From a virus, in IMG/VR virus record IMGVR_UViG_3300005537_000662, positions 1 to 33,456 of that record: a stretch of 33,456 bases of DNA; one strand, 5' to 3'. Both the position numbers and the translations under genes were made by a program. The notes under the pieces are model-generated. The model did not search any database. It was not told the origin of the DNA and was given only the letters and a program-made list of their open reading frames with translations. Of this stretch, positions 1 through 33,456 are shown one piece after another (position 1 is the first letter of the stretch; the number at the start of each line of letters is the position of its first letter).

Positions 1-432
1 ATGCTTACCCAGGCCGGCGTAATCCCGTACCGGGTCGCCGAGAAACAGGTGGAAGTCCTTCTGGTGACGTCCAGAGACACCGGCCGCTGGGTGATTCCCA
101 AAGGGCATGTCGAAGACGGAATGACCCCGCAGGGTGCCGCCTGCCAGGAAGCGTGGGAGGAAGCCGGCGTCGAGGGCGAGATCACCACCACCATGCCGCT
201 GGGCTTCGTGCCTTATCTCAAGCGGATGAAGAACGGCGACACCTGCGGCGCCTCGATCGCGGTGTTCCCGATGCTGGTCGGCAAGCAGAAGAAGAAATGG
301 CAGGAGCGCGGCGAGCGCACCCGCACCTGGTTTCCGATCTCGGAAGCGGCCGGGCTGGTCGACGAGCCGGCCTTGTCGGCTCTGCTGCTGCGGCTGGAAG
401 AGATCTTGCTGGGAGAGATCGAAGCACCATGA
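1..432 (+). CDS. Nudix hydrolase (chromosomal flank)
   Basis: A 143-residue single-domain Nudix protein, of the family that hydrolyses nucleoside diphosphates linked to another group; the substrate cannot be told. The N-terminus (QAGVIPYR) and the segment RWVIPKGHVEDG are typical, and the helix AWEEAGVEG carries the two metal-binding glutamates (E53, E54). Two positions of the canonical box GX5EX7REUXEEXGU differ: E to M at residue 41 and R to Q at residue 49. It resembles the diphosphoinositol-polyphosphate/AldX-like branch by eye. The window begins exactly at the ATG, so its promoter is not visible. It ends 28 bp before the tRNA-derived attachment site and is probably the host gene left of the insertion. 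Confidence 0.85.
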   Translation: MLTQAGVIPYRVAEKQVEVLLVTSRDTGRWVIPKGHVEDGMTPQGAACQEAWEEAGVEGEITTTMPLGFVPYLKRMKNGDTCGASIAVFPMLVGKQKKKWQERGERTRTWFPISEAAGLVDEPALSALLLRLEEILLGEIEAP

Positions 433-459
433 TGCACCATGATGCCTGGGGGACATCGA

Positions 460-504
460 TGGTGAGCGCGCCGGGGCTCGAACCCGGGACCTACTGATTA
501 AAAG
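460..504 (-). repeat. Attachment core, left (tRNA-Lys(UUU) 3' part)
   Basis: On the minus strand this reads as the anticodon loop CTTTTAA, the 3' anticodon stem, variable loop, complete T-arm (CCGGG-TTCGAGC-CCCGG), acceptor strand CGCGCTC and ACCA of a tRNA-Lys. All 45 bases are identical to 9275-9319. The 5' half (acceptor, D-arm) is absent, so this is a displaced 3' fragment and not a working tRNA. The bases just inside the element (TTGA on the minus strand) partly restore the 5' anticodon stem. Confidence 0.9.
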
Positions 505-641
505 TCAATTTTTAGGCGAAAATCACCCAAAAATGGCACCATAAAAACCCATCGGCTTTCATCGGTTTTAATCGGAATACACTAGGATTCATGCGGGTTT
601 GCGGACATCCTGAGCTTGCAATTAAGAGGCAAGTCAGGTTA

Positions 642-674
642 GAGCATGGTGCCACCGAAAGTGCCACCCGCCAC
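642..674 (+). repeat. 33-bp integrase arm-type repeat, left copy
   Basis: This is identical to 9210-9242. Each copy contains two GTGCCAC units five bases apart (GTGCCACCGAAAGTGCCAC). An inverted single unit (ATGGCACC, 533-540) lies between this copy and the core. The position between core and integrase gene, and its recurrence inside the other end, fit arm-type binding sites of the element's integrase. It ends 8 bp before the integrase ATG, so binding could also repress that gene. Confidence 0.7.
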
Positions 675-682
675 GAGGAACC

Positions 683-1930
683 ATGCTCACCGACACCAAG
701 ATACAAGCCGCCCTCAAGGACGCCACCAAAGAGACCATTCTGAGCGACGGAAGCGGAGGAAAGGGCGAAGGCTCGCTGAAGCTTCGTATCCGCCCCGCCT
801 CCGGTGGCAAGTTCTCGGCGTCTTGGGTTGCTGATTGGAAGCGCGACGGCAAGCGCCACCGGGCCATGATCGGCACCTATCCCGAAGTCAGCTTGAAGGA
901 CGCCCGCGCCAAGTTCCAAGCCACCAGCAAGGACGGGACGGCCCAGGCCACAGACGAAGCGCCAGCGGAAGCCCCGGCGCGTACCGTGGGTGAGTTGTTT
1001 GCCGGCTATGTGGCGTCCATGCGGGCTGCTGGGAAGATCAGCGCCGACGACGTGGAAATCAGCCTAGGTAAAGCCGCCACCAGCTTGGGCAAGGACACGC
1101 CTGCTGGGGCCGTCACCACCACCGATGTGTCCAAGGCGCTGGCCGTGATCTACGAACGCGGCGCCCGACGCATGGCCGACCTCACCCGCTCCCACATCCA
1201 CGCCGCGTTCAACTGGGGCATGGCCGCCGCCAATGACTACATGGTACCCGAAGCTGACCGCGTGCCCTGGGGCGTTGCCGCCAACCCCGCCGCCGGTATC
1301 CGCAAGGACGAAGGCGCCAGCACGCCGCGAGACCGCAATCTATCGCCTGCTGAAATTCATCATGTCTGGCAGGACACGCTTGTGGAGTTCCAGGGCTTCG
1401 CGGACCAGACGGGCAAAGTCATCCGGCTGGTGCTGCTGTGCGGCCAGCGCGTGCGGGAGACCTTACGTGTGGACGGCGCGGATGTAGACGTGGCGGCGAA
1501 GCTGTGGCGGATGCCGGCCCACAAGACCAAGGGGAAGAAGCAGCCCCATATCGTGCCGTTGCCGGACGAAGCCGTGGCGATTTTCCAAGAGTTAATCGAC
1601 CAGTATGGCGACGGGCCGCTGATCCACGGCATCACCGAACAGTCATTAGGCCGGGCCGTGTCGCGCTGGTGCGAAGACAACAAGGACAAGGTGGCGCGCT
1701 TCACGCCCCGCGATCTTCGCCGGACGTGGAAGTCCCGAGCCGGCGACGGGCCGAAGATCAGCAAGGAAACCCGCGACCGCATACAGCAGCACGCAAAAAT
1801 CGACACCTCCGGGCGGGTGTACGATCACGCCGACTATCTGCCGGAAATGACCGAGGCAATGGCGAAGTGGGCCAAGTGGCTGGCCAGGGTGGTGAAGGTG
1901 CCGCCTGCCCCGGTGGCGATTGCCGCCTAG
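683..1930 (+). CDS. int: P4-type tyrosine integrase of element A
   Basis: A 415-residue site-specific recombinase that would insert element A into the tRNA-Lys 3' end. The N-terminal arm-binding domain (residues 1-85, with GTYPEVSLKDAR) is followed by a core-binding domain (about 100-205) and a catalytic domain. Catalytic residues seen are R256 (CGQRVRE), the lysine region HKTKGKK (280-286), R343/R346 (FTPRDLRRT), H370 and nucleophile Y380. The first histidine of the HxxR box is arginine, a variant known in P4-type integrases. The start is the ATG after ACGAGGAACC, a close Shine-Dalgarno. It points into the element and is followed by a terminator. Confidence 0.93.
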   Translation: MLTDTKIQAALKDATKETILSDGSGGKGEGSLKLRIRPASGGKFSASWVADWKRDGKRHRAMIGTYPEVSLKDARAKFQATSKDGTAQATDEAPAEAPARTVGELFAGYVASMRAAGKISADDVEISLGKAATSLGKDTPAGAVTTTDVSKALAVIYERGARRMADLTRSHIHAAFNWGMAAANDYMVPEADRVPWGVAANPAAGIRKDEGASTPRDRNLSPAEIHHVWQDTLVEFQGFADQTGKVIRLVLLCGQRVRETLRVDGADVDVAAKLWRMPAHKTKGKKQPHIVPLPDEAVAIFQELIDQYGDGPLIHGITEQSLGRAVSRWCEDNKDKVARFTPRDLRRTWKSRAGDGPKISKETRDRIQQHAKIDTSGRVYDHADYLPEMTEAMAKWAKWLARVVKVPPAPVAIAA

Positions 1931-1963
1931 AACGCGCTGCGCGATTCACTGGCGAGAGTTGGG

Positions 1964-1995
1964 GCCGTCCTGGCTGTGTCGGGGCGGCTTTTTCT
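1964..1995 (+). terminator. Terminator after integrase A
   Basis: A 7-bp stem GCCGTCC (1964-1970) pairs with GGGCGGC (1982-1988) through one G-T pair and is followed by TTTTTCTTT. It lies 34 bp after the integrase stop. Confidence 0.6.
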
Positions 1996-2126
1996 TTGCC
2001 TGCGCTGGGTGAGTCTTAAACCGCGTTTTGGCGTTTCTGCCATGGCAGGAAATCCCGTCCGAGGACTTGAGAAGCGATCAGAAACAACATTGGGTCGTCA
2101 GCAACCGAGTATGAGTAACCGAACAA

Positions 2127-2318
2127 ATGACCCTTAACGTTGTACGCCTTGACCAAATTTTGAGCCGCCTGGGCATTTCCCGCACTGGCCTGCGCAACAT
2201 GATGATCCGAGGCGAATTCCCCCGCCCCACCGGCAAGCTTGGCCGCAATCTGGTATGGCCCACCACGGCGCTGGACGACTACATGGCCCGGCTGAACGGC
2301 CAGAAGGTGCCGGAATGA
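2127..2318 (+). CDS. AlpA-like helix-turn-helix regulator
   Basis: A 63-residue DNA-binding protein of the AlpA/excisionase type. Residues 6-50 show the pattern LDQILSRLGISRTGLRNMM, then GEFPRP, then GRNLVWPTTALDDY, which is the HTH-wing layout of the family. AlpA proteins of satellites control integrase expression or act as excisionase. It begins the replication operon: its stop codon overlaps the next ATG (ATGA), and two more genes follow with the same overlap. The region 2000-2126 upstream probably holds its promoter, though no clear boxes stand out. Confidence 0.85.
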   Translation: MTLNVVRLDQILSRLGISRTGLRNMMIRGEFPRPTGKLGRNLVWPTTALDDYMARLNGQKVPE

Positions 2319-2611
2319 TACACACCCCGAAGGCCGGCGACTTCCCGCACTTCCTGGCGCTGATCGCGGTCCATGAGAACCGGTCCCTCCGCTTCTGCAT
2401 CGCCTGGGACGCGGTGGTTTGCTACTGGACCACGCTTCCCGAACCCGGCAAACCTGCCCGCACTAGCCTGGATCTGGTCAATGCCCTGATCGGCGCACAG
2501 GAAGGCCCGCTGCATTCGCGCCTCAAGCGGCCCGAAATCGTGCGGCTGATCAATGACGCTCAAGCCTTCCTTGGGATGGCGGTCAACATGCAGTTGAAGG
2601 CGCAGGGATGA
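2315..2611 (+). CDS. Hypothetical protein coupled to replication gene
   Basis: A 98-residue protein of unknown function. The ATG at 2315 overlaps the alpA stop, and its own stop overlaps the replicase ATG at 2608, so it is translationally coupled on both sides. The sequence is mixed alpha/beta with no metal-binding cluster, membrane segment or nucleotide-binding motif. Its fixed place between alpA and the replicase suggests a role in replication or its control. An upstream in-frame ATG at 2255 lies inside alpA and is less likely. Confidence 0.7.
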   Translation: MIHTPKAGDFPHFLALIAVHENRSLRFCIAWDAVVCYWTTLPEPGKPARTSLDLVNALIGAQEGPLHSRLKRPEIVRLINDAQAFLGMAVNMQLKAQG

Positions 2612-4485
2612 GCAACGAACGCGATTACAAAGCCTACATGCCAGCCGTCGCCCGATATCTGCTGGGTGAACCGAACCCCGAGCATTCCACCGCGACGGAA
2701 TGGCGATGGGGAACCCACGGCTCCAAGGCCGTAAATCTGGAAAAGGCCGCGTATCACGATCACGAAAGCGGCGACCAGGGCGGTGTCCTGTACATGGTTA
2801 AGCTGCTGGCGAAGGACTTCACCGCCACCACCGATCTGGGCGAATGGCTGGCCGGGCATGGGCTGGCGGCGAACGACAACCAGGCCAGCGACAACGCGCC
2901 GAAGAAGGACCGAGGGCGGCGAGTGGCGTCCTATGACTACCGGGACGCAGCCGGTGCGGTGGTGTTACGGGTCGAGCGGTGGGAGCCTAAGCGGTTTAGC
3001 CAATGCCGCCCGGACGGCAACGGCGGGTGGCTCTACCGGGATATTTACAAGAGCTTCACCCATGTTCCCTACCGCCTGCCCGAATTGCTGGCCGCCGATC
3101 CGTCCGCGCCGGTCTTCGTGGTTGAGGGCGAGAAGGACGCCGACAATCTGGCCAAGCTGGGCGCCTTGGCAACCTGCAACGCAGCCGGCGCCACCAAGTG
3201 GCCGGACGAACTGAGCCAGCATTTCCAGGGCCGTGACGTGGTGATCCTGCCGGACAACGACGAAATGGGTGGGAAACATGCCGACGTGGTGCGCTCCAAG
3301 CTGGCGGGCGTAGCGAAGTCCATCCGCACGGTGGAACTGCCCGGCCTGCCGCCCAAAGGTGACGTGTCGGACTGGATCGCGGCGGGCGGAACGCTCCACG
3401 ATCTGCTGGCGCTGACCCCTCCGATCGCACCGGACAACGACAACAACGCGAGTCACATGGGCATGTATTCGGCGGCGGACATTCCCGCTAACTGGGTTCC
3501 GCCGTATGAACTGACCGAGGATTTGATACCCGCCATCGGGTACGGCTTCGTCTATGGCCCGAGCCATGCCGGTAAGACGTTCTATGTCATCGACCTGGGC
3601 TTACGCATCGCCACCGGACGCAAGTTCTTCGGGCGCCGCACCATGCCCATGGCCGTGGTCTACATCGCTGCCGAGGGAAGCATTGACCGCCGCATCAAGG
3701 CTTGGCAGGTGTTCAACGGCGAGGCGCTTGACCCGTTCTCCGATGCTGTCGAGGAACCGGACGTGAGCAATTTCCATATCATCCCGCAATCCGTCATCAT
3801 GGTAGGCGGCCAAGCCGACCCGGACACCCTGGTACGTGAGATCAAGGCGGTTGAGGCCCGCACCGGCCAGAAAGTCGGGCTGGTCATTGGTGACACCCTG
3901 GCGGCCATGATCCCCGGCGCGGATGAGAACAACGCGGGCGAGATGGGCGGGGTGAACAAATTCAGCCGCCGCATCGCCGCCGCCTGCCAGTGCTTTTTCC
4001 TGATCGTTCATCACAGCGGGAAGAATGAAGAGAACGGGATGCGCGGTTCCGGCGCCTTCTACAATAACTCGGACGTGGTGATTAAGCTGGGCAAGACCAC
4101 CGCCAAATTCGAGGGTTTCGGCATCGTAGTGGCCGAGGTGACGAAAAACCGTGACCTGGGACCGTCGAGCGATATGGCGTACATCCTGCCCACGGTCGAG
4201 GTGGGCCGTTCGCACCAATGGCCGGACAAGGCGATTACGACTTGCGTTGTCAAAGCCTGCCCACCGCCTGAGAAGCCCGACAAGGGCGACCGTCTGACCC
4301 CAGCGCAACAGAAGGTCTTGGACTACCTCAAGAGCCTGGGGCACCAGGGCGCAGGGCCTGGGGCTGTCGCCGCCGCTCTGGCCATGGACAAGAGCAATGC
4401 AGGAAAACGCCTGAAAGAGCTTGAGGCCCGTGAATTGGTCCGCTCTGTGGCAGGCATTTATCAAGCCATCAGTCAGAACGAGTAG
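2608..4485 (+). CDS. Replication protein: TOPRIM + RecA-fold ATPase (RepA/primase-helicase type)
   Basis: A 625-residue replicase likely to drive autonomous replication of element A. Residues about 165-260 form a TOPRIM-like domain (FVVEGEKDADNL at 170-181, then ILPDNDE at 213-219). Residues about 300-520 form a RecA-like ATPase with Walker A GPSHAGKT (317-324), a probable Walker B VGLVIGDT (423-430) and the segment HHSGKN (468-473) seen in RepA-like helicases. The last 60 residues look like a winged helix (TPAQQKVLDYL to LKELEARELV). No CHC2 zinc finger is present. It is the last gene of the alpA operon; a hairpin array starts 8 bp after its stop. Confidence 0.85.
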   Translation: MSNERDYKAYMPAVARYLLGEPNPEHSTATEWRWGTHGSKAVNLEKAAYHDHESGDQGGVLYMVKLLAKDFTATTDLGEWLAGHGLAANDNQASDNAPKKDRGRRVASYDYRDAAGAVVLRVERWEPKRFSQCRPDGNGGWLYRDIYKSFTHVPYRLPELLAADPSAPVFVVEGEKDADNLAKLGALATCNAAGATKWPDELSQHFQGRDVVILPDNDEMGGKHADVVRSKLAGVAKSIRTVELPGLPPKGDVSDWIAAGGTLHDLLALTPPIAPDNDNNASHMGMYSAADIPANWVPPYELTEDLIPAIGYGFVYGPSHAGKTFYVIDLGLRIATGRKFFGRRTMPMAVVYIAAEGSIDRRIKAWQVFNGEALDPFSDAVEEPDVSNFHIIPQSVIMVGGQADPDTLVREIKAVEARTGQKVGLVIGDTLAAMIPGADENNAGEMGGVNKFSRRIAAACQCFFLIVHHSGKNEENGMRGSGAFYNNSDVVIKLGKTTAKFEGFGIVVAEVTKNRDLGPSSDMAYILPTVEVGRSHQWPDKAITTCVVKACPPPEKPDKGDRLTPAQQKVLDYLKSLGHQGAGPGAVAAALAMDKSNAGKRLKELEARELVRSVAGIYQAISQNE

Positions 4486-4492
4486 GGCATGT

Positions 4493-4594
4493 GGTTAGGC
4501 GTGGTCGTGGTGGTTCCCCTATAGAGGGGGAACCACACCACACCACGCCTAACCCCACCGATGCCGGGGCGTGGTTGAGCGTGGTTCAACCACG
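4493..4594. repeat. Hairpin and GTGGTT-repeat array (candidate origin)
   Basis: A 13-bp perfect stem (GGTTAGGCGTGGT, 4493-4505, with 4542-4554) encloses a second stem (GGTTCCCC with GGGGAACC) and a small loop. A second hairpin follows: CGTGGTTGA (4570-4578) with TCAACCACG (4586-4594). The unit GCGTGGT or GTGGTT recurs throughout. There is no T-run, so a plain terminator is unlikely. Its place directly behind the replicase suits an origin, as in P4-like satellites; that function is inferred. Confidence 0.55.
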
Positions 4595-4748
4595 GGAAGA
4601 CCACTGCAACCATGGCACCCCAGAACGGTAAAACTCTCGTCATCACTGGTGGGGATTCGGTTTTGATGCGCTAAATGATTGTGGACATTGATAAGTTTTG
4701 CAGCGAACTGTTGATCGTGCCGTAACCGCTTAAATTGGAGGCAGGGTC

Positions 4749-5393
4749 ATGGACGGTAATTTTCTCAAGGGAGTTGCTGCAATCCTGTGGCCAATCGTGA
4801 CGGCCACGGCGATTTTTTTGTTCCGACTTGAGATCCGATCGCTGATTTCTCGCCTTCGCCGCGTCGGAAAAGGTGTCGCGGAGTTCAGCGAGAGCCGTAT
4901 CGGCGTGCAGGCAATCACTATTCCGCTTGAAGAGGCACTTAAAAACGTCGCGCCCGGTGAAAAGCAGGAACCCTACATCGTTAAGGGGGTGGAAGAGGTC
5001 CGGATTGAGTTAAACAGAGTTCAGCCTGAGGACGCTCACGCCAGGGAATCTCTTTTATTGCTGAGACTGACTCAGAGGAAAACAGAGAGAGATTGGGCGA
5101 TATTCTGGCTCAACATTTTTGCCTCTCAACGCAGTGCATTAGAGGCTATGGCGGCCGAAACCTCAGCGACTGACTTAACTAAATTCTATGATGCCCATGT
5201 CGAAGCATATGAAGCTTATGTCAAGACGCAAGCTTCTCCGGTCCCGGTAGGCACATTTGAAGTTTGGGTGAGATTCTTGGTGGTGAATAACGCCGCAATA
5301 GTCACCGGCAGGAACGGTACGATAACGGAACTTGGGCGGGGCTTCCTTGAGTTTGCCGCGCAACAGAACCTTCCGAGATTCCAGGGCTGGTAA
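4749..5393 (+). CDS. Membrane-anchored protein of unknown function (cargo)
   Basis: A 214-residue protein with one N-terminal membrane segment (residues 8-25, GVAAILWPIVTATAIFLF), a charged helical middle (about 30-150) and a C-terminal stretch (about 165-212, FEVWVRFLVVNNAAIV to ITELGRGFLEFA) that resembles a winged helix. I recognise no family. Base composition is visibly more AT-rich than its neighbours and codon use is looser, which suggests separate acquisition. It has its own upstream gap and its own strong terminator, so it is a single-gene unit between replication and regulation modules, a usual position for accessory or defence cargo in satellites. Confidence 0.75.
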   Translation: MDGNFLKGVAAILWPIVTATAIFLFRLEIRSLISRLRRVGKGVAEFSESRIGVQAITIPLEEALKNVAPGEKQEPYIVKGVEEVRIELNRVQPEDAHARESLLLLRLTQRKTERDWAIFWLNIFASQRSALEAMAAETSATDLTKFYDAHVEAYEAYVKTQASPVPVGTFEVWVRFLVVNNAAIVTGRNGTITELGRGFLEFAAQQNLPRFQGW

Positions 5394-5416
5394 CAACCTT
5401 AAAACCCCAGAACGAC

Positions 5417-5450
5417 AACGGCCCCGCCAGTGATGACGGGGCCGTTTTGC
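5417..5450 (+). terminator. Strong terminator after the membrane-protein gene
   Basis: A 10-bp perfect GC-rich stem AACGGCCCCG (5417-5426) pairs with CGGGGCCGTT (5437-5446) around a 10-nt loop; the T-run is short (TTTT). Confidence 0.8.
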
Positions 5451-5530
5451 TCAAGGGTGGGTCTTGCGAGTGACTTCGTTGGGAAGACCGGCGCAGTGAA
5501 TGGCAGTCCGCCGCGCTGGTGGCGGGACAG

Positions 5531-5773
5531 TTAGTTTTCGCGCTCCGCTAGTCGGACACCCGCTCCGCCGGACATGCTCGGCGTTCCATCCGGAATGAAC
5601 TGGACGCCAGCAAGCACCAATGCCTGTTCTAGGGCTTCAAGGGTGGAGCGATGGCAATTTCCGTCATTCTCAAACCGGCTAATCGCGTTGGGATGCAAGC
5701 CGGATTTGGTGGCCAAATCTCTGATAGACCAGCCGACCAGGGCGCGGGCGGCCCTGCATTGCTCCGGTGTCAC
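5531..5773 (-). CDS. XRE-family HTH regulator
   Basis: An 80-residue Cro/C1-type DNA-binding protein. The HTH spans residues 4-55 (CRAARALVGWSIRDLATKSG then HPNAISRFENDG). A short tail (ALVLAGVQFIPDG) is typical of a widespread small XRE group. The start is GTG at 5773, supported by GAGGGG seven bases upstream. It lies 11 bp behind a 57-residue ORF on the same strand, with which it probably forms an operon divergent from the Ash-like ORF and capsid gene. It probably represses element A's own promoters; no operator was identified. Confidence 0.85.
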   Translation of the reverse strand: MTPEQCRAARALVGWSIRDLATKSGLHPNAISRFENDGNCHRSTLEALEQALVLAGVQFIPDGTPSMSGGAGVRLAEREN

Positions 5774-5784
5774 GCTATACCCCT

Positions 5785-5958
5785 CTATACGCCGACAGCG
5801 GCGCGGATGGCGACGGCGTTTTCGCCAAGCCGATCAGCGATATAGCTAAGAGACTTCTGGATTTCTTCACCGACATAAGACGATCCACTCAGCAAAACGA
5901 GCGTCTCCCCCAGTGCTTCAAGATCACTGATTCTCTCCTCGATATCAGTCCTATTCAT
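5785..5958 (-). CDS. Small acidic helical protein upstream of the XRE gene
   Basis: A 57-residue ORF starting at ATG 5958 (MNRTDIEERISDLEALGETL) and ending in TAG at 5785, 11 bp before the XRE start. It is acidic and helical with heptad-like leucine/isoleucine spacing, so it may form a coiled coil. Third codon positions are GC-rich as in neighbouring genes. The family is not recognised; it may be a partner of the XRE protein, but only the gene order suggests so. Confidence 0.55.
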   Translation of the reverse strand: MNRTDIEERISDLEALGETLVLLSGSSYVGEEIQKSLSYIADRLGENAVAIRAAVGV

Positions 5959-5983
5959 TAGCCCAACTCCACACGCCTAAAGA

Positions 5984-6262
5984 GTGATTTTTTCACAGTA
6001 TATAAATACAAATACATCGTTTCTCGATTGCGTCAAGGGCGGAAGTTTGGCCAACGCCGCGCAAAACGTGTGTCGGCCATTGCAGGCAGAAAAAAGGTAC
6101 TTCCTGACGGGGTGCCGGGCGTGGGTGGCCATTCCCCGCGCCTTCCCAGGTGTGGGAGCCTATTTTAAGAGCACTTTTCATTTACATGCCCAGAAAGAAG
6201 CCTGTTATCAAGGGCTTAGGTATGTAAGGGACACAAAATCAGAGCGTCGGACACCCCTGTAA
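5984..6262 (+). CDS. Ash-like protein (satellite/phage Ash family)
   Basis: An ORF of up to 92 residues whose C-terminal half (ACYQGLRYVRDTKSERRTPL) resembles the conserved ending of Ash/Icd-like proteins of P4-like satellites and other phages, where a VRxxKSxxRTPL pattern is typical. The middle (NAAQNVCRPLQAEKRYF, GCRAWVAIPRA) is also in keeping. The GTG at 5984 is only one possible start and no good ribosome-binding site was found. Function in the family is unclear; cell-division inhibition is reported for Icd-like members. The AT-rich stretch 5985-6015 may be promoter rather than coding. Confidence 0.45.
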   Translation: MIFSQYINTNTSFLDCVKGGSLANAAQNVCRPLQAEKRYFLTGCRAWVAIPRAFPGVGAYFKSTFHLHAQKEACYQGLRYVRDTKSERRTPL

Positions 6263-6543
6263 GCCGCTCTCTGCCTGGGTTTTCGCTTTCTGTCCCCAGG
6301 GTTTCTGCCACTTCCCGCGAAGCCGCCCGCCCTCCCTGGTGCCGATCTCCCGCGCCGACCGCTCCCCGGTAGACGGCGACTGAGCAATAATTTCCCAAAA
6401 AAAGCAGCAATTACGTGTTTGGCGGAAATCGGCCATTCAGTATTCATGGCGGTTAATGTTGGTTCACTGGAGTTCATTAACATACTGATTTTAATGAATA
6501 ATTTGTGTGTACAGGGTGAGTTGTGATTGCGCACCATTAGCGC
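6263..6543 (+). other. Untranslated leader before the capsid gene
   Basis: About 280 bp without a supported gene. The first part is pyrimidine-rich (6263-6350). The stretch 6390-6525 is strongly AT-rich for this window and includes CATTAA (about 6475) and TTAATG (about 6490) as a small inverted repeat, so it probably carries the capsid-gene promoter. If element A is packaged, this leader is one place to look for a packaging site, but none is recognisable by eye. Confidence 0.5.
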
Positions 6544-8157
6544 ATGAACGGACGGCAACCTGCTGCCCGACGATGTGAGAAACCTCAAACAATGATGACA
6601 GCCGAACGCCTCAACGCGATCAAAGGGACCAAACACGTCCGCCTGTTCGATATCGAGGAAGATGCCGACACCACTACCCGCGAAATCACCATTTCGTTCT
6701 CTTCCGAGAACGACGAAGTGGAGACCCGCATGGGTATCGAAATCCTCGGGCACCAGCCGGGTGAAGTGGACATGGAGCGGCTAGCCGCTGGCGGCGCTCC
6801 GGTGCTGTGGATGCACAATTGGGATGACCAGCGCGGCGTCGTGGTCCGCGCTTGGATCGACAGCAATGCGGGCCGTGGCTATGCCGTGGTGCGCCTGTCC
6901 CGGTCGCCCCTGGGACAGCAGTTGTTGCAGGACATCAACGACGGCATCGTGACCAAAGTCTCTGTCGGCTACGAAGTCCGCGCCGGCCACGCTATCGACG
7001 ATGACACTTACCGCGTTACCCGCTGGTGGCCCTACGAAATCAGCTTCGTCTCTATCCCGGCTGACAATTCCGTGGGTGTGGGCCGTTCCTACAGCCCGCA
7101 GGAACAGGCATTCATCGCCGAAATCCAGGCCGCCGGCCCCTCTCACCGCCTCGCTGCCCTGGTGCGCGGCCTTCCCGACTTTACCCATACCATCACTCAG
7201 GAAACCCGCTCCAAAATGATCGTTACCCCGACCACCACCACCCACGCCCCGTCGAACATCATCCGCGCCATGATCACCGAGGCCGAAAACGCGCCGTCGC
7301 TCCATTTCAGCTATGACGGCAACGGCGACGTTAAGCGCGTCACCCCGATTCCGCACGGCTCTCGCAACGAGCTTGATATCCGTTCGCTATCGTTCCCGGC
7401 CCTGACCGTGGGCGACCACAACACCTACATGCCGCGTGGCACCGAGGCCGGCAAGGCCACCACCATGGCAACCGAGATCGCGCGCCGGTCCGTCGTTGCC
7501 CAGGCTGGTGCCAATATCGTGGTTATCCCCTTCGCGCCGAATTCCCTCCCGGGCGAAGTCATGACCCGCACGAATTCCGGCCTGATCGTCGTGCAGCCGG
7601 CAAACGTGGCGCCGGTGGCCGATGGCGCTGAAATCCCCGTGTCCGATCTGCCGTTCCTCCGCGCCGATATCGACCGCGCCACCATCCCCATGCTGGGCGT
7701 GGAGTTCTCGCTGCCTCGCTCGGTCATGCGCCAATATTTCTACGGTGAACTGCCGGACATCCTGATGGCCAGCATCGGCATGGGCATCACCAACGCGCTG
7801 GACGCGCTGTTGCTCGGCGCGCTGGACGCTGCCAACCTGGGCGCGTTCTCGCTGGGCGCTGCCGCCGGCAAGTCGCTGACCTTCGGTGAACTGCGCGGCG
7901 TAATCGGCACCAGCGGGACCGGGGCGACCGTCAACGAGAACCGGGAACTGACCGTTTCCGGCGTCCTGGCCGAACTGTCGAGCGAGACCGCGAATACCTA
8001 TATCGCCGCCTGGGACAGGATGGGCATCGCCCTCGCGTCGAACATCACCCTGATCACCAAGCGGGACAGTGCCGCCTCTGGTTCGGTGGCTGTCACCGCG
8101 CTGCTGAATGCCATGCCTCTGGTGCCGGATGCCTCCTACGCCTGGAAGGTGGCGTAA
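6544..8157 (+). CDS. HK97-type prohead protease-major capsid protein fusion
   Basis: A 537-residue fusion that would both form and mature an icosahedral capsid. Residues about 25-185 are a U35-type prohead protease: probable catalytic H91 (VLWMHNWDD) and S140 (TKVSVGYEV), followed by the signature WWPYEISFVSIPAD (161-174). Residues about 230-537 are the HK97-fold capsid domain, with a serine/threonine-rich linker between. The ATG at 6544 has no clear ribosome-binding site; ATG at 6592 or 6595 (MMTAERL) is an equally good start. This is the only structural gene of element A; portal, terminase and connector genes are missing. The fused form is known from other proteobacterial prophages. Confidence 0.88.
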   Translation: MNGRQPAARRCEKPQTMMTAERLNAIKGTKHVRLFDIEEDADTTTREITISFSSENDEVETRMGIEILGHQPGEVDMERLAAGGAPVLWMHNWDDQRGVVVRAWIDSNAGRGYAVVRLSRSPLGQQLLQDINDGIVTKVSVGYEVRAGHAIDDDTYRVTRWWPYEISFVSIPADNSVGVGRSYSPQEQAFIAEIQAAGPSHRLAALVRGLPDFTHTITQETRSKMIVTPTTTTHAPSNIIRAMITEAENAPSLHFSYDGNGDVKRVTPIPHGSRNELDIRSLSFPALTVGDHNTYMPRGTEAGKATTMATEIARRSVVAQAGANIVVIPFAPNSLPGEVMTRTNSGLIVVQPANVAPVADGAEIPVSDLPFLRADIDRATIPMLGVEFSLPRSVMRQYFYGELPDILMASIGMGITNALDALLLGALDAANLGAFSLGAAAGKSLTFGELRGVIGTSGTGATVNENRELTVSGVLAELSSETANTYIAAWDRMGIALASNITLITKRDSAASGSVAVTALLNAMPLVPDASYAWKVA

Positions 8158-8158
8158 C

Positions 8159-8635
8159 ATGGTGCATCTGCCCGGCTTTCCCGTCAGGCAGGCCGAAGCC
8201 GGGGGCGAACACCCCCCGGCCAAGCGCCGCCGCAGTTGGAACCCCTTTGGTCGCCGCCGGTCGATGGAGTTTGAGAAGAGCCCAATTCAGGAAGAGGCCG
8301 AGGACATGCGCGGCCTGAACAGCGGAGCGACCACCGCCGCCCAGCTACAGCTTGCCGTCGCCATCAGCGGCGCCACGATCAATATCCGCGACTACGGCGA
8401 CGAGCCCGACGAAACGCGGACCCTGATCACCACTAGTTTCGGGGCGTTCTTTATCGAGAACGTCAACTTCCCCGCCCTGGTGCGCAAGAAGTGGCCGGAC
8501 CTGTCTGACAACGATATCGCCCAGGCCTGGGACCAGCTTTGCGACATCATGCGGATTGAGCGCCTCACCGCCATGAAAGCCGCCCGCCAGAGCAAGCCCG
8601 AACGCCGGCACTTCCACCGTGGACTTGACCTGTGA
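8159..8635 (+). CDS. Hypothetical protein downstream of capsid gene
   Basis: A 158-residue protein starting one base after the capsid stop, so it is co-transcribed and probably co-translated. The N-terminus is basic and proline-rich (PPAKRRRSWNPFGRRRS); the middle (GATINIRDYGDEPDETR) is beta-like; the C-terminal third (LVRKKWPDLSDNDIAQAWDQL) is helical. I recognise no family. By position it may be a head-associated protein (connector, decoration or scaffold-like), but the sequence does not prove it. An upstream in-frame ATG at 8108 lies inside the capsid gene and is unlikely. Confidence 0.7.
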   Translation: MVHLPGFPVRQAEAGGEHPPAKRRRSWNPFGRRRSMEFEKSPIQEEAEDMRGLNSGATTAAQLQLAVAISGATINIRDYGDEPDETRTLITTSFGAFFIENVNFPALVRKKWPDLSDNDIAQAWDQLCDIMRIERLTAMKAARQSKPERRHFHRGLDL

Positions 8636-8642
8636 GGATCGA

Positions 8643-8816
8643 ATGACCGACGAAACTAACCCGACGCGCCGTGTGGGCGTATTCCTCGACCGCGAAACTG
8701 AGGAGATGATTAACCAAAGCCGCCGCGACTATGCCCGCGAGACCGGCGTCAGCCTGTCCATGTCCGCCGCGATCATCAAAGCCAGCCGCGAAGGGCTGAA
8801 AGGCACCAGCAAATGA
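8643..8816 (+). CDS. Small ribbon-helix-helix-like protein
   Basis: A 57-residue protein with the layout of a ribbon-helix-helix DNA-binding domain: a short strand (TRRVGVFLDRETEEM) then two helices (QSRRDYARETGVSLSMSAAIIKASREGL). It starts 7 bp after the preceding stop, with GAGGATCGA upstream as Shine-Dalgarno, and is the last gene before a strong terminator. It is probably a regulator of the capsid operon or an antitoxin-type protein; no toxin gene adjoins it. Confidence 0.65.
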   Translation: MTDETNPTRRVGVFLDRETEEMINQSRRDYARETGVSLSMSAAIIKASREGLKGTSK

Positions 8817-8896
8817 GCCTTTCCTGATCAAGATTGCGTGCCGGCCTGGGGGCTAACCTTCCCCTGTTTCGGAGGGCCGCCGGCCCGAATGACAAA

Positions 8897-8930
8897 AGCC
8901 CCGCCGTGGATACCCCGGCGGGGTTTTTCT
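8897..8930. terminator. Bidirectional terminator
   Basis: An 8-bp stem CCCCGCCG (8899-8906) pairs with CGGCGGGG (8916-8923), followed by TTTTTCTTT on the plus strand. AAAA precedes the stem, giving a T-run in the other direction too. It separates the capsid operon from the convergent small gene ending at 8936. Confidence 0.88.
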
Positions 8931-8935
8931 TTGGC

Positions 8936-9115
8936 TTAAGGACACCGGGCAGCAGCTACCACCAGCAATTCGTCGTCGGTCAGCGGCGGATTGTCCGGAT
9001 CGGCCAGGGCGTTTGCAGTGCGCTCCTCGTCCGTCATAGCGTCGATACGGGCGATTTCTTCCGGAGTCATCCTGGGCGGGTTGGCGGGGTCCAGGGTGCG
9101 TCTAACGATTGCCAT
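8936..9115 (-). CDS. 59-residue antitoxin-like protein (BrnA N-terminal type)
   Basis: Translates as MAIVRRTLDPANPPRMTPEE, then IARIDAMTDEERTANALADP, then DNPPLTDDELLVVAAARCP. The DPxNPP and PPLTDDEL motifs resemble the N-terminal, toxin-contacting part of BrnA-type antitoxins; the BrnA of element B has a similar stretch (SDPDTEELTDENA). The DNA-binding C-terminal domain of BrnA is missing and no toxin gene adjoins it. Codon use matches the neighbourhood, and the gene converges on a bidirectional terminator. It may be an orphan antitoxin. Confidence 0.6.
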   Translation of the reverse strand: MAIVRRTLDPANPPRMTPEEIARIDAMTDEERTANALADPDNPPLTDDELLVVAAARCP

Positions 9116-9123
9116 CTGCTATC

Positions 9124-9157
9124 TTCCGCATCATTTGCGCAAAAAATATTAGCGGAA
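9124..9157. promoter_or_regulatory. Inverted repeat upstream of the antitoxin-like gene
   Basis: TTCCGC (9124-9129) and GCGGAA (9152-9157) flank a perfect palindrome TTTGCGCAAA (9134-9143) and an AT-rich tract. It lies directly upstream of the minus-strand start at 9115 and is a probable promoter with operator. Confidence 0.45.
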
Positions 9158-9209
9158 ATTATGACCCGTCGGAATGCGCGTGATACGGGATGAAAACGGA
9201 TGGAGTGCG

Positions 9210-9242
9210 GAGCATGGTGCCACCGAAAGTGCCACCCGCCAC
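9210..9242 (+). repeat. 33-bp integrase arm-type repeat, right copy
   Basis: Identical to 642-674 and 32 bp inside the right core. It keeps the two GTGCCAC units of the left copy and has no gene beside it, so its conservation is best explained by integrase binding. Confidence 0.7.
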
Positions 9243-9274
9243 CGATCCGAAAAGGCGAGAAACCAAGGAAAACT

Positions 9275-9319
9275 TGGTGAGCGCGCCGGGGCTCGAACCC
9301 GGGACCTACTGATTAAAAG
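9275..9319 (-). repeat. Attachment core shared by elements A and B
   Basis: A second identical 45-bp tRNA-Lys 3' part. Beyond the anticodon loop (9320 onward) the sequence is not tRNA, so this is not the intact gene. It serves as right end of element A and, by inference, left end of element B. Confidence 0.85.
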
Positions 9320-9436: not shown

Positions 9437-9491
9437 TAAATGTACCCCCATAAAATAGGCTTGCCACCCGTATTTATTGGGGGTACATTTA
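9437..9491. promoter_or_regulatory. Inverted-repeat operator of the brnTA operon
   Basis: A perfect 13-bp inverted repeat, TAAATGTACCCCC (9437-9449) and GGGGGTACATTTA (9479-9491), with arms 29 bp apart. It ends six bases before the brnT ATG and so spans the promoter. BrnA antitoxins repress their own operon, so this is a likely BrnA operator. Confidence 0.7.
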
Positions 9492-9496
9492 TCCTC

Positions 9497-9763
9497 ATGA
9501 ACATCACATTCGATCCCGCGAAAGACGCCATCAACACCGAGAAGCACGGCATGTCTTTGGCCGAGGCGAGCGAGATCGAGTGGGAGACCCTGTGGGCCTA
9601 TGAGGACACGCGCGCCAACTATGGCGAAATCCGGATGATTGGCTTCGCTTATATCGGCCTTCGCCTTCACTGCGTGGTCTATACGGACCGTGGCGATGAC
9701 CGCCGCGTGATCAGCCTGCGGAAAGCTAACAAGCGAGAGGAAAAGCGCTATGCCGCCGCTTAA
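9497..9763 (+). CDS. brnT: BrnT-family toxin
   Basis: An 88-residue type II toxin with a RelE-like RNase fold that would stop translation when free. The start MNITFDPAKDAINTEKHG and end RRVISLRKANKREEKRYAAA match the family: an early lysine/histidine pair and the RxISxRxAxxxExxxY signature. The ATG at 9497 follows an operator; an upstream ATG (9440) lies within the operator. It overlaps brnA by 14 nt. Likely job: stabilise element B by addiction or act against incoming phage. Confidence 0.88.
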   Translation: MNITFDPAKDAINTEKHGMSLAEASEIEWETLWAYEDTRANYGEIRMIGFAYIGLRLHCVVYTDRGDDRRVISLRKANKREEKRYAAA

Positions 9764-10088
9764 ACCGGGCCATATCAGCCCTACCGACGAGGAAGACGCC
9801 GCCATCACCGCGGCGATCGCCAGCGACCCCGATACTGAGGAGCTGACGGACGAAAACGCGAAGCGTCTTCAACCGGTCCGTCCGCGCGGCCGCCCGCGGC
9901 TGGACGCGCCAAAGGAAGCTGTTAAACTTCGCCTCGATCAGGACGTGCTCAAGGTCTTTCGCGCGACCGGCCCGGGCTGGCAATCGAGGATCAATCAGGT
10001 CCTGAAGGACAGCCTGGTACACCGCATCCCGTCCCCTGCCCGTCCAGATCCCGATCACGTGGCGAGGCCGGTCAAGAAACGCGGGTGA
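9750..10088 (+). CDS. brnA: BrnA-family antitoxin
   Basis: A 112-residue antitoxin. The N-terminal part is acidic (residues 10-40) and would wrap the toxin. The C-terminal part (KLRLDQDVLKVFRATGPGWQ then SRINQVLKDSL, about 65-95) is the family's ribbon-helix-helix DNA-binding region. The order toxin then antitoxin with overlap is normal for brnTA. It ends convergent with, and overlapping by 17 nt, the last minus-strand gene of element B. Confidence 0.85.
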   Translation: MPPLKPGHISPTDEEDAAITAAIASDPDTEELTDENAKRLQPVRPRGRPRLDAPKEAVKLRLDQDVLKVFRATGPGWQSRINQVLKDSLVHRIPSPARPDPDHVARPVKKRG

Positions 10089-32152: not shown

Positions 32153-32417
32153 CAACTGGCCCGCCGGCGCGATCCCGCGCTGCCTCGACGTCAGCCAGGC
32201 CGCCTTCTATTGCGGCAACCTCTCGGAGACCAAGTTCCGCGACCTGGTCAAGGAAGATGCCAAAGGACGCCGGCCGATCCTTAAGCCCGTCCCGCTGAGC
32301 CCGGGCCGGATGGGATGGCTGCGCGAGCAGCTCGATGAATGGCTTGACCGCCAAGCCGGCCGGCAGCAGCCTGACGGCAACGCAAGCGATTGGATGGCAT
32401 CCCTTGGTGAAGATTGA
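32136..32417 (+). CDS. Excisionase/AlpA-like protein
   Basis: A 93-residue DNA-binding protein with a MerR-like winged HTH: CLDVSQAAFYCGNLSETKFR, then PLSPGRMGWLREQLDEWLDR. Gene directly before the integrase, sharing its mRNA and overlapping it by 11 nt, the classic excisionase place. Shine-Dalgarno GGAAGAGG. Confidence 0.8.
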   Translation: MPKPPDNWPAGAIPRCLDVSQAAFYCGNLSETKFRDLVKEDAKGRRPILKPVPLSPGRMGWLREQLDEWLDRQAGRQQPDGNASDWMASLGED

Positions 32418-33456
32418 CCTTCCCTACGCCTGGACGCAGACGGTCAAGGGCCGGAGCTACACCTATTATCGCCGCGACGGGCAGCGCATCCCCATAAAAG
32501 GGGTGCCTGGCACGCGGGAATGGCTCGATGCCTATTACCGCATCCACGAAAGCTTCGAGGCGCCTGCAGCACAGGGCACCAAGCCCGGGTCGCTCGGCGC
32601 CCTGGTGGAGCACTTCCTGTCGGCGCCGGAGTTCACGAAGCTGGCCAACAAGACCAAGGGCGACTACCGGACCCACCTGGACTACCTGAAAAGCAAGCAC
32701 GGCCAGCTGCCGGTCGCGACGATGCCTCGCGACTTCGTCCTTGGCCTTCGCGACAAGATGGCGAAGACCCCGCGCAAGGCGGACTACCTGGTAGCGGTGC
32801 TGAAGCGCCTCCTCAATTTTGCCATCGACCGCCCCACTACCTACAGGCTCACTCATAACCCGGCAGCCAAGATCAAGTCGATCGCCTCGACGGAAGGTTG
32901 GGCTCCCTGGGAAGAGTGGCAGATCGCCAAATTCCGAGCCCATTGGAAACCGGACACGGTCGAACGCGTCGCCTTCGAGATGCTGCTTAACCTCGGCCAG
33001 CGCGGCGGCGATACCTGCGCTATGGTGCGCAACCAGTATTTCAACGGGTCCGTAGCGGTAAAGCAGGAGAAGACCCGGGCGCGCGTCTGGGTGCCTGCCT
33101 CTGACGAGCTGGCCGACGTTCTCGACGCCTGGCTAGCGAAGCACGACCACATCGCGATTCTAACCCTCGACAGCGGCGCGGCGATGAAGATCCACTACTT
33201 TCGCAAGATGATGGCCGCCGCGTTCCAGGCGGCCGGCATCGAGGGCGTAGTGATCCATGGTCTCCGCTACACCGCGGCAACGGTCCTGCACGAGGTCGGC
33301 TGTGATTGGGAGACGATCGGCTCGATCACCGGCCACGCGACCGCCCAGATGGTGAAGAAGTACACCGAGAAGAAGCGCCGGGCGAAACTGGCGATTGCCC
33401 GCCTCAACCGTGCCCGCGGAACGAAGCAAAAACGGTCGAGTGAAAAACCGGACTGA
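32407..33456 (+). CDS. int: Tyrosine integrase of element B
   Basis: A 349-residue recombinase if GTG 32407 is the start; ATG 32335 would add 24 residues read inside the excisionase gene. The core-binding domain covers about 50-150 (GSLGALVEHFLSAPEFTKLA). Catalytic motifs: LGQRGGDTCAM (Arg), KQEKTRARVWVPA (Lys), HGLRYTAATVLHE (HxxR), GSITGHATAQM (second His) and nucleophile Tyr in KKYTEK. Not closely similar to integrase A. The stop codon is the last codon of the window, so its attachment site should lie just beyond. Confidence 0.92.
   Translation: MKIDLPYAWTQTVKGRSYTYYRRDGQRIPIKGVPGTREWLDAYYRIHESFEAPAAQGTKPGSLGALVEHFLSAPEFTKLANKTKGDYRTHLDYLKSKHGQLPVATMPRDFVLGLRDKMAKTPRKADYLVAVLKRLLNFAIDRPTTYRLTHNPAAKIKSIASTEGWAPWEEWQIAKFRAHWKPDTVERVAFEMLLNLGQRGGDTCAMVRNQYFNGSVAVKQEKTRARVWVPASDELADVLDAWLAKHDHIAILTLDSGAAMKIHYFRKMMAAAFQAAGIEGVVIHGLRYTAATVLHEVGCDWETIGSITGHATAQMVKKYTEKKRRAKLAIARLNRARGTKQKRSSEKPD

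Follow-up and report, generated by a model that had tools for sequence, protein, structure and literature searches.

A capsid-bearing island at a tRNA-Lys gene of an alphaproteobacterium points to an unnamed lineage of phage satellites that may build their own small shell

Can a mobile element of less than 9 kb make its own shell while borrowing the rest of the particle from a helper phage? This question is raised by an island in the IMG/VR virus record IMGVR_UViG_3300005537_000662, of which we analyzed positions 1 to 33,456 (33,456 nucleotides, hereafter the window). An earlier note on this DNA had described an element of under 9 kb that combines a P4-type integrase, an AlpA-like protein, a replicase with an origin-like array, and a protease-capsid fusion, and that lacks terminase, portal, tail, and lysis genes. 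Family scans of 16 open reading frames (ORFs) with Pfam and PHROGs bear out this description. The island spans positions 460 to 9319, is 8,815 bp long, intact, and bounded at both ends; its genes have the corresponding Pfam and PHROGs matches (Table 1), and none of the 16 ORFs matched a terminase, portal, tail, or lysis family. We propose that it is an integrated satellite of the Gram-negative phage-inducible chromosomal island (PICI) type and a member of a lineage without a name as yet, marked by the gene order capsid, protein X, and ribbon-helix-helix (RHH) protein, and that it would build a small shell mainly from its own capsid protein. Judged from sequence comparisons and a structure model, we give this reading an even chance of being correct.

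The ends of the island are well defined. It lies between the copies of a perfect 45-bp direct repeat that corresponds to the 3' end of tRNA-Lys(UUU). Neither copy makes up a complete tRNA; a third identical copy, which completes tRNA-Lys(UUU), starts at window-equivalent position 33,507, 51 bp beyond the window end, and the complete tRNA-Lys(ttt) gene was found on the far side of a neighbouring 24-kb prophage. Since both the full gene and the third copy lie past this prophage, island and prophage are arranged in tandem at a single tRNA-Lys gene. Near either end of the island there is a copy of a perfect 33-bp repeat with paired GTGCCACC motifs. These 8-mers were confined to the two 33-bp repeats in a search of the first 9.6 kb, and the repeats are probably integrase arm sites. 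The DNA flanking the island is closest to Azospirillum (~77% identity, among plasmid and chromid records), which identifies the host as an alphaproteobacterium.

The order of capsid, X, and RHH genes recurs in members from Alpha-, Beta-, and Gammaproteobacteria, where the cassette is located at tRNA-Ser and tRNA-Pro in Burkholderiaceae, at fis in E. coli, and on enterobacterial plasmids. Homologous elements thus exist at other tRNA genes, but no second copy at a tRNA-Lys gene was found. Profiles built without the window recovered its X and RHH proteins in cassette order (E values in Table 1). Protein X is 104-172 aa long across members; searches of Pfam, PHROGs, PADLOC, and NCBIfam assigned it to no family, and eight helper-type phage loci contained nothing equivalent. 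The replicase of the island is 50% identical to that of the related satellite L049 across 275 aa. Both cassette and element size are kept in at least 12 bounded elements of 8.5-10.0 kb. Between their attachment repeats, which in some relatives are only 14-18 bp long and in several lie at a tRNA end, L028-L030 measure 8,647, 8,794, and 8,555 bp, L045 9,061 bp, L047 9,975 bp, L049 9,670 bp, L057 9,807 bp, and the E. coli elements 9,380-9,750 bp; the enterobacterial plasmids are 8.9-9.3 kb in size. Portal and large terminase were found by Pfam and PHROGs neither in the island nor in seven relatives (L028-L030 and four further Burkholderiaceae elements), which upholds the earlier proposal of a satellite-type element rather than a deleted prophage; the annotated E. 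coli copies and plasmids have no portal or large terminase either. The ratio of non-synonymous to synonymous substitution rates (dN/dS) was 0.08-0.30 for the relatives' capsids and mostly 0.1-0.3 for capsid and X, indicating that both are under purifying selection. In E. coli, the capsid domain had matches in 65 of 5,426 genomes. The copies opened sit between yhdJ and fis, and E. coli annotations list their capsid only as a hypothetical protein. Such frequencies are estimates from sampled genomes, obtained in searches with one sequence or a small profile. Close relatives of the island itself were found in none of 392 related or 385 class-level genomes, and no additional loci emerged when viral contigs were scanned more widely, using either the capsid profile or two other members as queries.

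What kind of capsid protein is conserved in this cassette? In the island, it is fused to a prohead protease, and the fusion matches phrog_617 (1e-42), phrog_4523 (9e-38), and an NCBIfam protease/capsid fusion family (1e-38). The same fusion is present in L045 (Burkholderiaceae, tRNA-Ser). The protease part of the island's fusion (residues 1 to ~190) shares 40-57% identity with the N-terminal region of the fused capsid proteins from ep3/Bas97/Mica/Persinger/PPpW-3-type phages, with 57% identity to the major capsid protein fusion of phage contig L009. It retains the motifs MHNWDDQR, KVSVGY, and YEISFVSIPAD, whose His, Ser, and Glu we take to be the catalytic residues as in HK97-type proteases. 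Capsid residues 222-537 had no tblastn match (E 0.01) in 50,697 phage genomes, nor had the capsids of three other family members or protein X. This absence suggests that capsid and X are satellite genes and not recent phage leftovers. An AlphaFold model of the full-length fusion was discarded because of its predicted local distance difference test score (pLDDT) of 35; the capsid domain alone was modelled from an alignment of 13 sequences, with a pLDDT of 75.5 and a predicted template modelling score (pTM) of 0.72. In Foldseek searches with this model, the best solved matches in the PDB were all HK97-fold shells (E 1.4e-8), and the best viral predicted matches in BFVD were major capsid proteins (E 2.4e-11). 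The capsid domain is predicted from the model to have the HK97 fold. A profile of the capsid family gave no meaningful match to PDB sequences. We also considered an encapsulin, which has this fold in common; the fusion to a prohead protease within a mobile element argues against it.

The protease of the island, as well as the small terminase and the tape measure found in its relatives, all appear to trace to one group of myoviruses, the ep3/Bas97/Mica type, which is the predicted helper. Together with PPpW-3/VP882-type myoviruses, these phages share the layout of the fusion and the level of protease identity given above. Unlike the island, they are complete phages of ~40 kb, and they carry ~200 residues between protease and mature capsid (PDB match, profile positions 399-664) compared to only ~45 in the island, indicating that the delta or scaffold segment is essentially missing from the latter. 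A small-terminase family was found in three of the scanned members and a tape-measure family in two, and neither gene is present in the island. In six relatives, the small terminase shares 37-56% identity with its counterparts in the ep3/Bas97/Mica group; for the tape measure, identity is 48-49% between L047 or L057 and one phage of this group, and 42-47% between the E. coli relatives and several others. Full-length tape measure proteins of 656-763 aa are encoded in L016, L026, L027, L033-L035, L047, and L057; in satellites, they may act on tail length or on DNA entry specificity. The genes captured from the helper group would bear on maturation, packaging choice, and tail length, and the capsid itself appears to be satellite-specific. 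The satellite capsid domain is predicted to have the HK97 fold in common with that of the presumed helper; tblastn found no sequence similarity between the two, and hhalign gave a probability of 2% (E 0.02) for this pair.

According to the reading we favour, infection by a helper myovirus of this type, with its own fused protease-capsid protein, would be followed by excision of the island by Int and AlpA and by replication from the island's own origin. A small shell would then be assembled mainly of the satellite's capsid protein and matured from inside by the fused protease. With hardly any of the usual scaffolding (delta) segment left in the capsid protein, assembly may be guided by protein X. 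A 9-kb genome compared to a helper of 41 kb would suggest a T=3 or T=4 shell, provided that a single copy is packaged. Portal, terminase, and tail would be supplied by the helper, and in the relatives, the helper-derived small terminase and tape measure would bias packaging and tail assembly. A more specific version, in which a distinct and widespread satellite family builds complete small heads from an HK97-type capsid protein of its own that has no scaffolding domain and in some members carries a maturation protease, in which these heads are docked on an ep3-type portal, terminase, and tail, and in which some members swap the tape measure and so reshape head, packaging, and tail, is more tentative, and we regard it as possible rather than probable.

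Several points weigh against a shell made mainly of the satellite's own protein. Most relatives have a capsid gene without the protease, which is therefore not essential to the lineage. Ccm of SaPIbov5, a satellite-encoded capsid homologue with a solved structure, redirects head size by contributing only pentamers to a small shell of mixed composition, and by itself it forms no capsid (PMC8569155). A size of ~9 kb is also typical across PICIs, whose average is 9.5 kb (PMC10803314), and is thus no proof of a small head, although the clustering of sizes is consistent with a fixed small head. Finally, searches of this genome revealed no resident helper of the predicted type, with neither a GpA-type large terminase nor another fusion capsid turning up, so that the helper would come from outside; one genome from the same family and five from the same order do contain fusion-capsid loci.

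The case of Ccm suggests an alternative in which the satellite capsid co-assembles with the helper capsid, for example as pentamers, and thereby forces a small mixed shell. Besides this direct precedent, PmCI172, which carries a capsid homologue, gives small heads with a contractile-tailed helper (PMC6092414), and the many relatives without a protease might use the fused one of the helper. However, co-assembly usually requires a closer match than that found here, where the capsid shows no similarity to the presumed helper capsid domain by tblastn and almost none by profile comparison, despite a protease that is 57% identical. Moreover, the fusion of a protease to the satellite subunit is in keeping with a shell consisting mainly of that subunit. 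We consider such remodelling unlikely in this lineage, even if it is the strongest of the alternatives. Less probable still is that the capsid-like protein merely hinders helper assembly or is dispensable, with the satellite moving as concatemers in full-size helper heads. This is the situation in EcCICFT073, where deletion of the capsid-like gene neither relieved interference nor affected transfer (PMC6092414, PMC10111431); the strong conservation of the three-gene cassette in three classes under purifying selection and the retention of the maturation protease in two distant lineages (the island and L045) argue against it. That the island is a deleted prophage which chanced to retain its capsid gene is very improbable and largely refuted, since, even if the lack of head genes among the scanned ORFs of the adjoining prophage indicates that deletions do happen at this tRNA-Lys gene, it has precise attachment and arm repeats, an inward-reading integrase with AlpA and replicase, a cassette and size seen in many elements, and a capsid domain that by tblastn is not that of any known phage.

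How does the proposed satellite relate to those already described? The earlier note had presented a capsid without packaging genes as a novelty, which was overstated: 21 of 29 reference Gram-negative PICIs carry a capsid gene (PMC10111431), and a satellite with a capsid as its only such gene is an already known kind. Gram-negative PICIs have an integrase, AlpA, a replicase, an origin 3' of the replicase, and often a capsid gene in the late zone (PMC6092414, PMC10111431). The same plan is seen here in site-specific integration with an inward-reading tyrosine integrase of the island's own, and in a replicase followed by an origin-like array, with no tail, lysis, or full packaging set. The AlpA-like protein agrees with an AlpA regulator in its position and in its HTH_17 and phrog_66 matches, but its score with Pfam AlpA is below the cut-off. 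Gram-negative PICIs are also similar in size (~9-15 kb), and their fis site is that of the E. coli relatives. In contrast, the reference elements are all gammaproteobacterial with lambda-like or Pasteurellaceae capsids, whereas the island is alphaproteobacterial and combines a phage-unmatched capsid of predicted HK97 fold with a fused protease and X-RHH partners. Capsid-forming PICIs (cf-PICIs) encode their own capsid plus a full head and packaging set (portal, connectors, terminase); a capsid gene is common to both, and the portal, connector, and terminase families are absent from the island. SaPIbov5 Ccm is likewise a capsid homologue encoded by a satellite and serves to alter head size, but it is recognisably homologous to the helper capsid (PMC8569155), unlike the capsid of the island with its fused protease. 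Phage-inducible chromosomal minimalist islands (PICMIs) share the very small gene set of integrase, AlpA, and replicase; they have no capsid function, use the fis site, and travel as concatemers in full helper heads, as opposed to a capsid gene and tRNA-Lys here (PMC10803314). No Pfam or PHROG match to the P4-like satellite genes Psu, Sid, or Delta was found among the element ORFs. New features are the X and RHH lineage and its occurrence in Alpha- and Betaproteobacteria, the capsid with its fused protease and missing delta segment, the tape measure of relatives, and the predicted helper. The literature searched, whose coverage was incomplete, held no description of a capsid-X-RHH lineage.

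Table 1. Features of the island, with positions in the window and the basis of each assignment.
Feature	Position	Strand	Basis
Attachment repeat at the left end (tRNA-Lys 3' end)	460..504	-	Perfect 45-bp direct repeat; identical copy in the complete tRNA-Lys(ttt) gene past the prophage
Left 33-bp repeat; two GTGCCACC motifs, probably integrase arm sites	642..674		Repeat search; function inferred
Tyrosine integrase, P4-type, 415 aa, reads into element	683..1930	+	Arm-DNA-bind_3 7e-10, Phage_integrase 6e-8, phrog_1 9e-47
AlpA-like excisionase/regulator, 63 aa	2127..2318	+	phrog_66 2e-5, HTH_17 2e-5; Pfam AlpA 0.004, below cut-off
118-aa protein, directly upstream of replicase	2255..2611	+	ORF; no family found (Pfam, PHROGs, PADLOC, NCBIfam)
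Primase/helicase-type replicase, 625 aa	2608..4485	+	AAA_25 4e-27, phrog_239 1e-33, phrog_906 3e-30
Origin-like GTGGT/ACCAC array, directly 3' of replicase	4486..4615		Pentamer count; function by analogy to PICIs (PMC6092414)
214-aa protein	4749..5393	+	Weak phrog_18019 match (0.002) only
XRE-family repressor, 80 aa	5531..5773	-	HTH_3 1.4e-7
57-aa protein beside repressor	5785..5958	-	ORF; no significant Pfam/PHROGs family
Prohead protease (aa 1 to ~190) fused to predicted HK97-fold capsid (aa ~236-537), 537 aa	6544..8157	+	PHROGs/NCBIfam; AlphaFold and Foldseek
Protein X, 158 aa, conserved downstream of capsid gene	8159..8635	+	Match 4e-11 to profile made without window
RHH protein, third cassette gene	8643..8816	+	Match 2e-6 to profile made without window
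59-aa ORF	8936..9115	-	ORF only
Right 33-bp repeat; two GTGCCACC motifs, probably integrase arm sites	9210..9242		Repeat search; function inferred
Attachment repeat, right copy, common to island and neighbouring prophage	9275..9319	-	Perfect 45-bp direct repeat

Among the remaining features of the island, the array behind the replicase contains 11 GTGGT/ACCAC pentamers in ~130 bp, compared to 91 across the whole 33.4-kb window. PICI origins sit 3' of the replicase (PMC6092414), and by analogy the array is origin-like. The gene for the 214-aa protein has a G+C content of 52% versus 60% for the element and is probably cargo, possibly a defence gene.

The tandem neighbour at the same tRNA-Lys gene, which occupies positions 9320-33456 and continues to window-equivalent 33,507, encodes its own integrase (32335-33456), a primase, a helicase, repressors, a baseplate, a tail fibre, and an endolysin. 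No terminase, portal, capsid, or tape measure was found among the ORFs scanned; the prophage looks head-deleted and as such could not serve as helper. At its left end (9440-10088), a ribonuclease toxin gene (phrog_4399, 3e-31) overlaps a second small gene, and the two are probably a toxin-antitoxin pair.

Further loci came to light in the searches for relatives. The Rhodovastum plasmid RHOAph (L019, NZ_OW485609.1, 10.7 kb) encodes a protease-capsid fusion, ParA, and a DUF3987 replicase, with no terminase or portal annotated. It was rejected as a family member, as only its protease matches and X and RHH are absent; it is possibly a second, unrelated line of capsid-only satellites. In the E. coli locus L025, a cf-PICI-like cluster of portal, connector, HNH, TerS, and TerL genes (1-5035) lies directly upstream of the capsid satellite, which suggests two satellites in tandem. 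The E. coli plasmid CP077066.1, whose 17,382 bp are about twice 8.7 kb, has two capsid matches and is possibly a dimeric form of the 9-kb satellite plasmid.

Overall, the recurrence of this cassette in elements of the same size from other Proteobacteria suggests that there is an unnamed group of virus parasites whose members supply the shell themselves and take the rest from a helper. If this is true, the minimal needs for owning a head would be a single capsid gene with a single partner, together with borrowed machinery, and PICI-type satellites with capsids would extend to Alphaproteobacteria and Betaproteobacteria. The analysis also points out a group of helper phages, with Bas97 and ep3 among them, and relatives that are tractable in the laboratory. 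In these, namely the E. coli fis islands such as that of EF7-18-51 and 9-kb plasmids such as pSCU-121-2, the control of capsid size in the absence of a classical scaffold may be studied directly.

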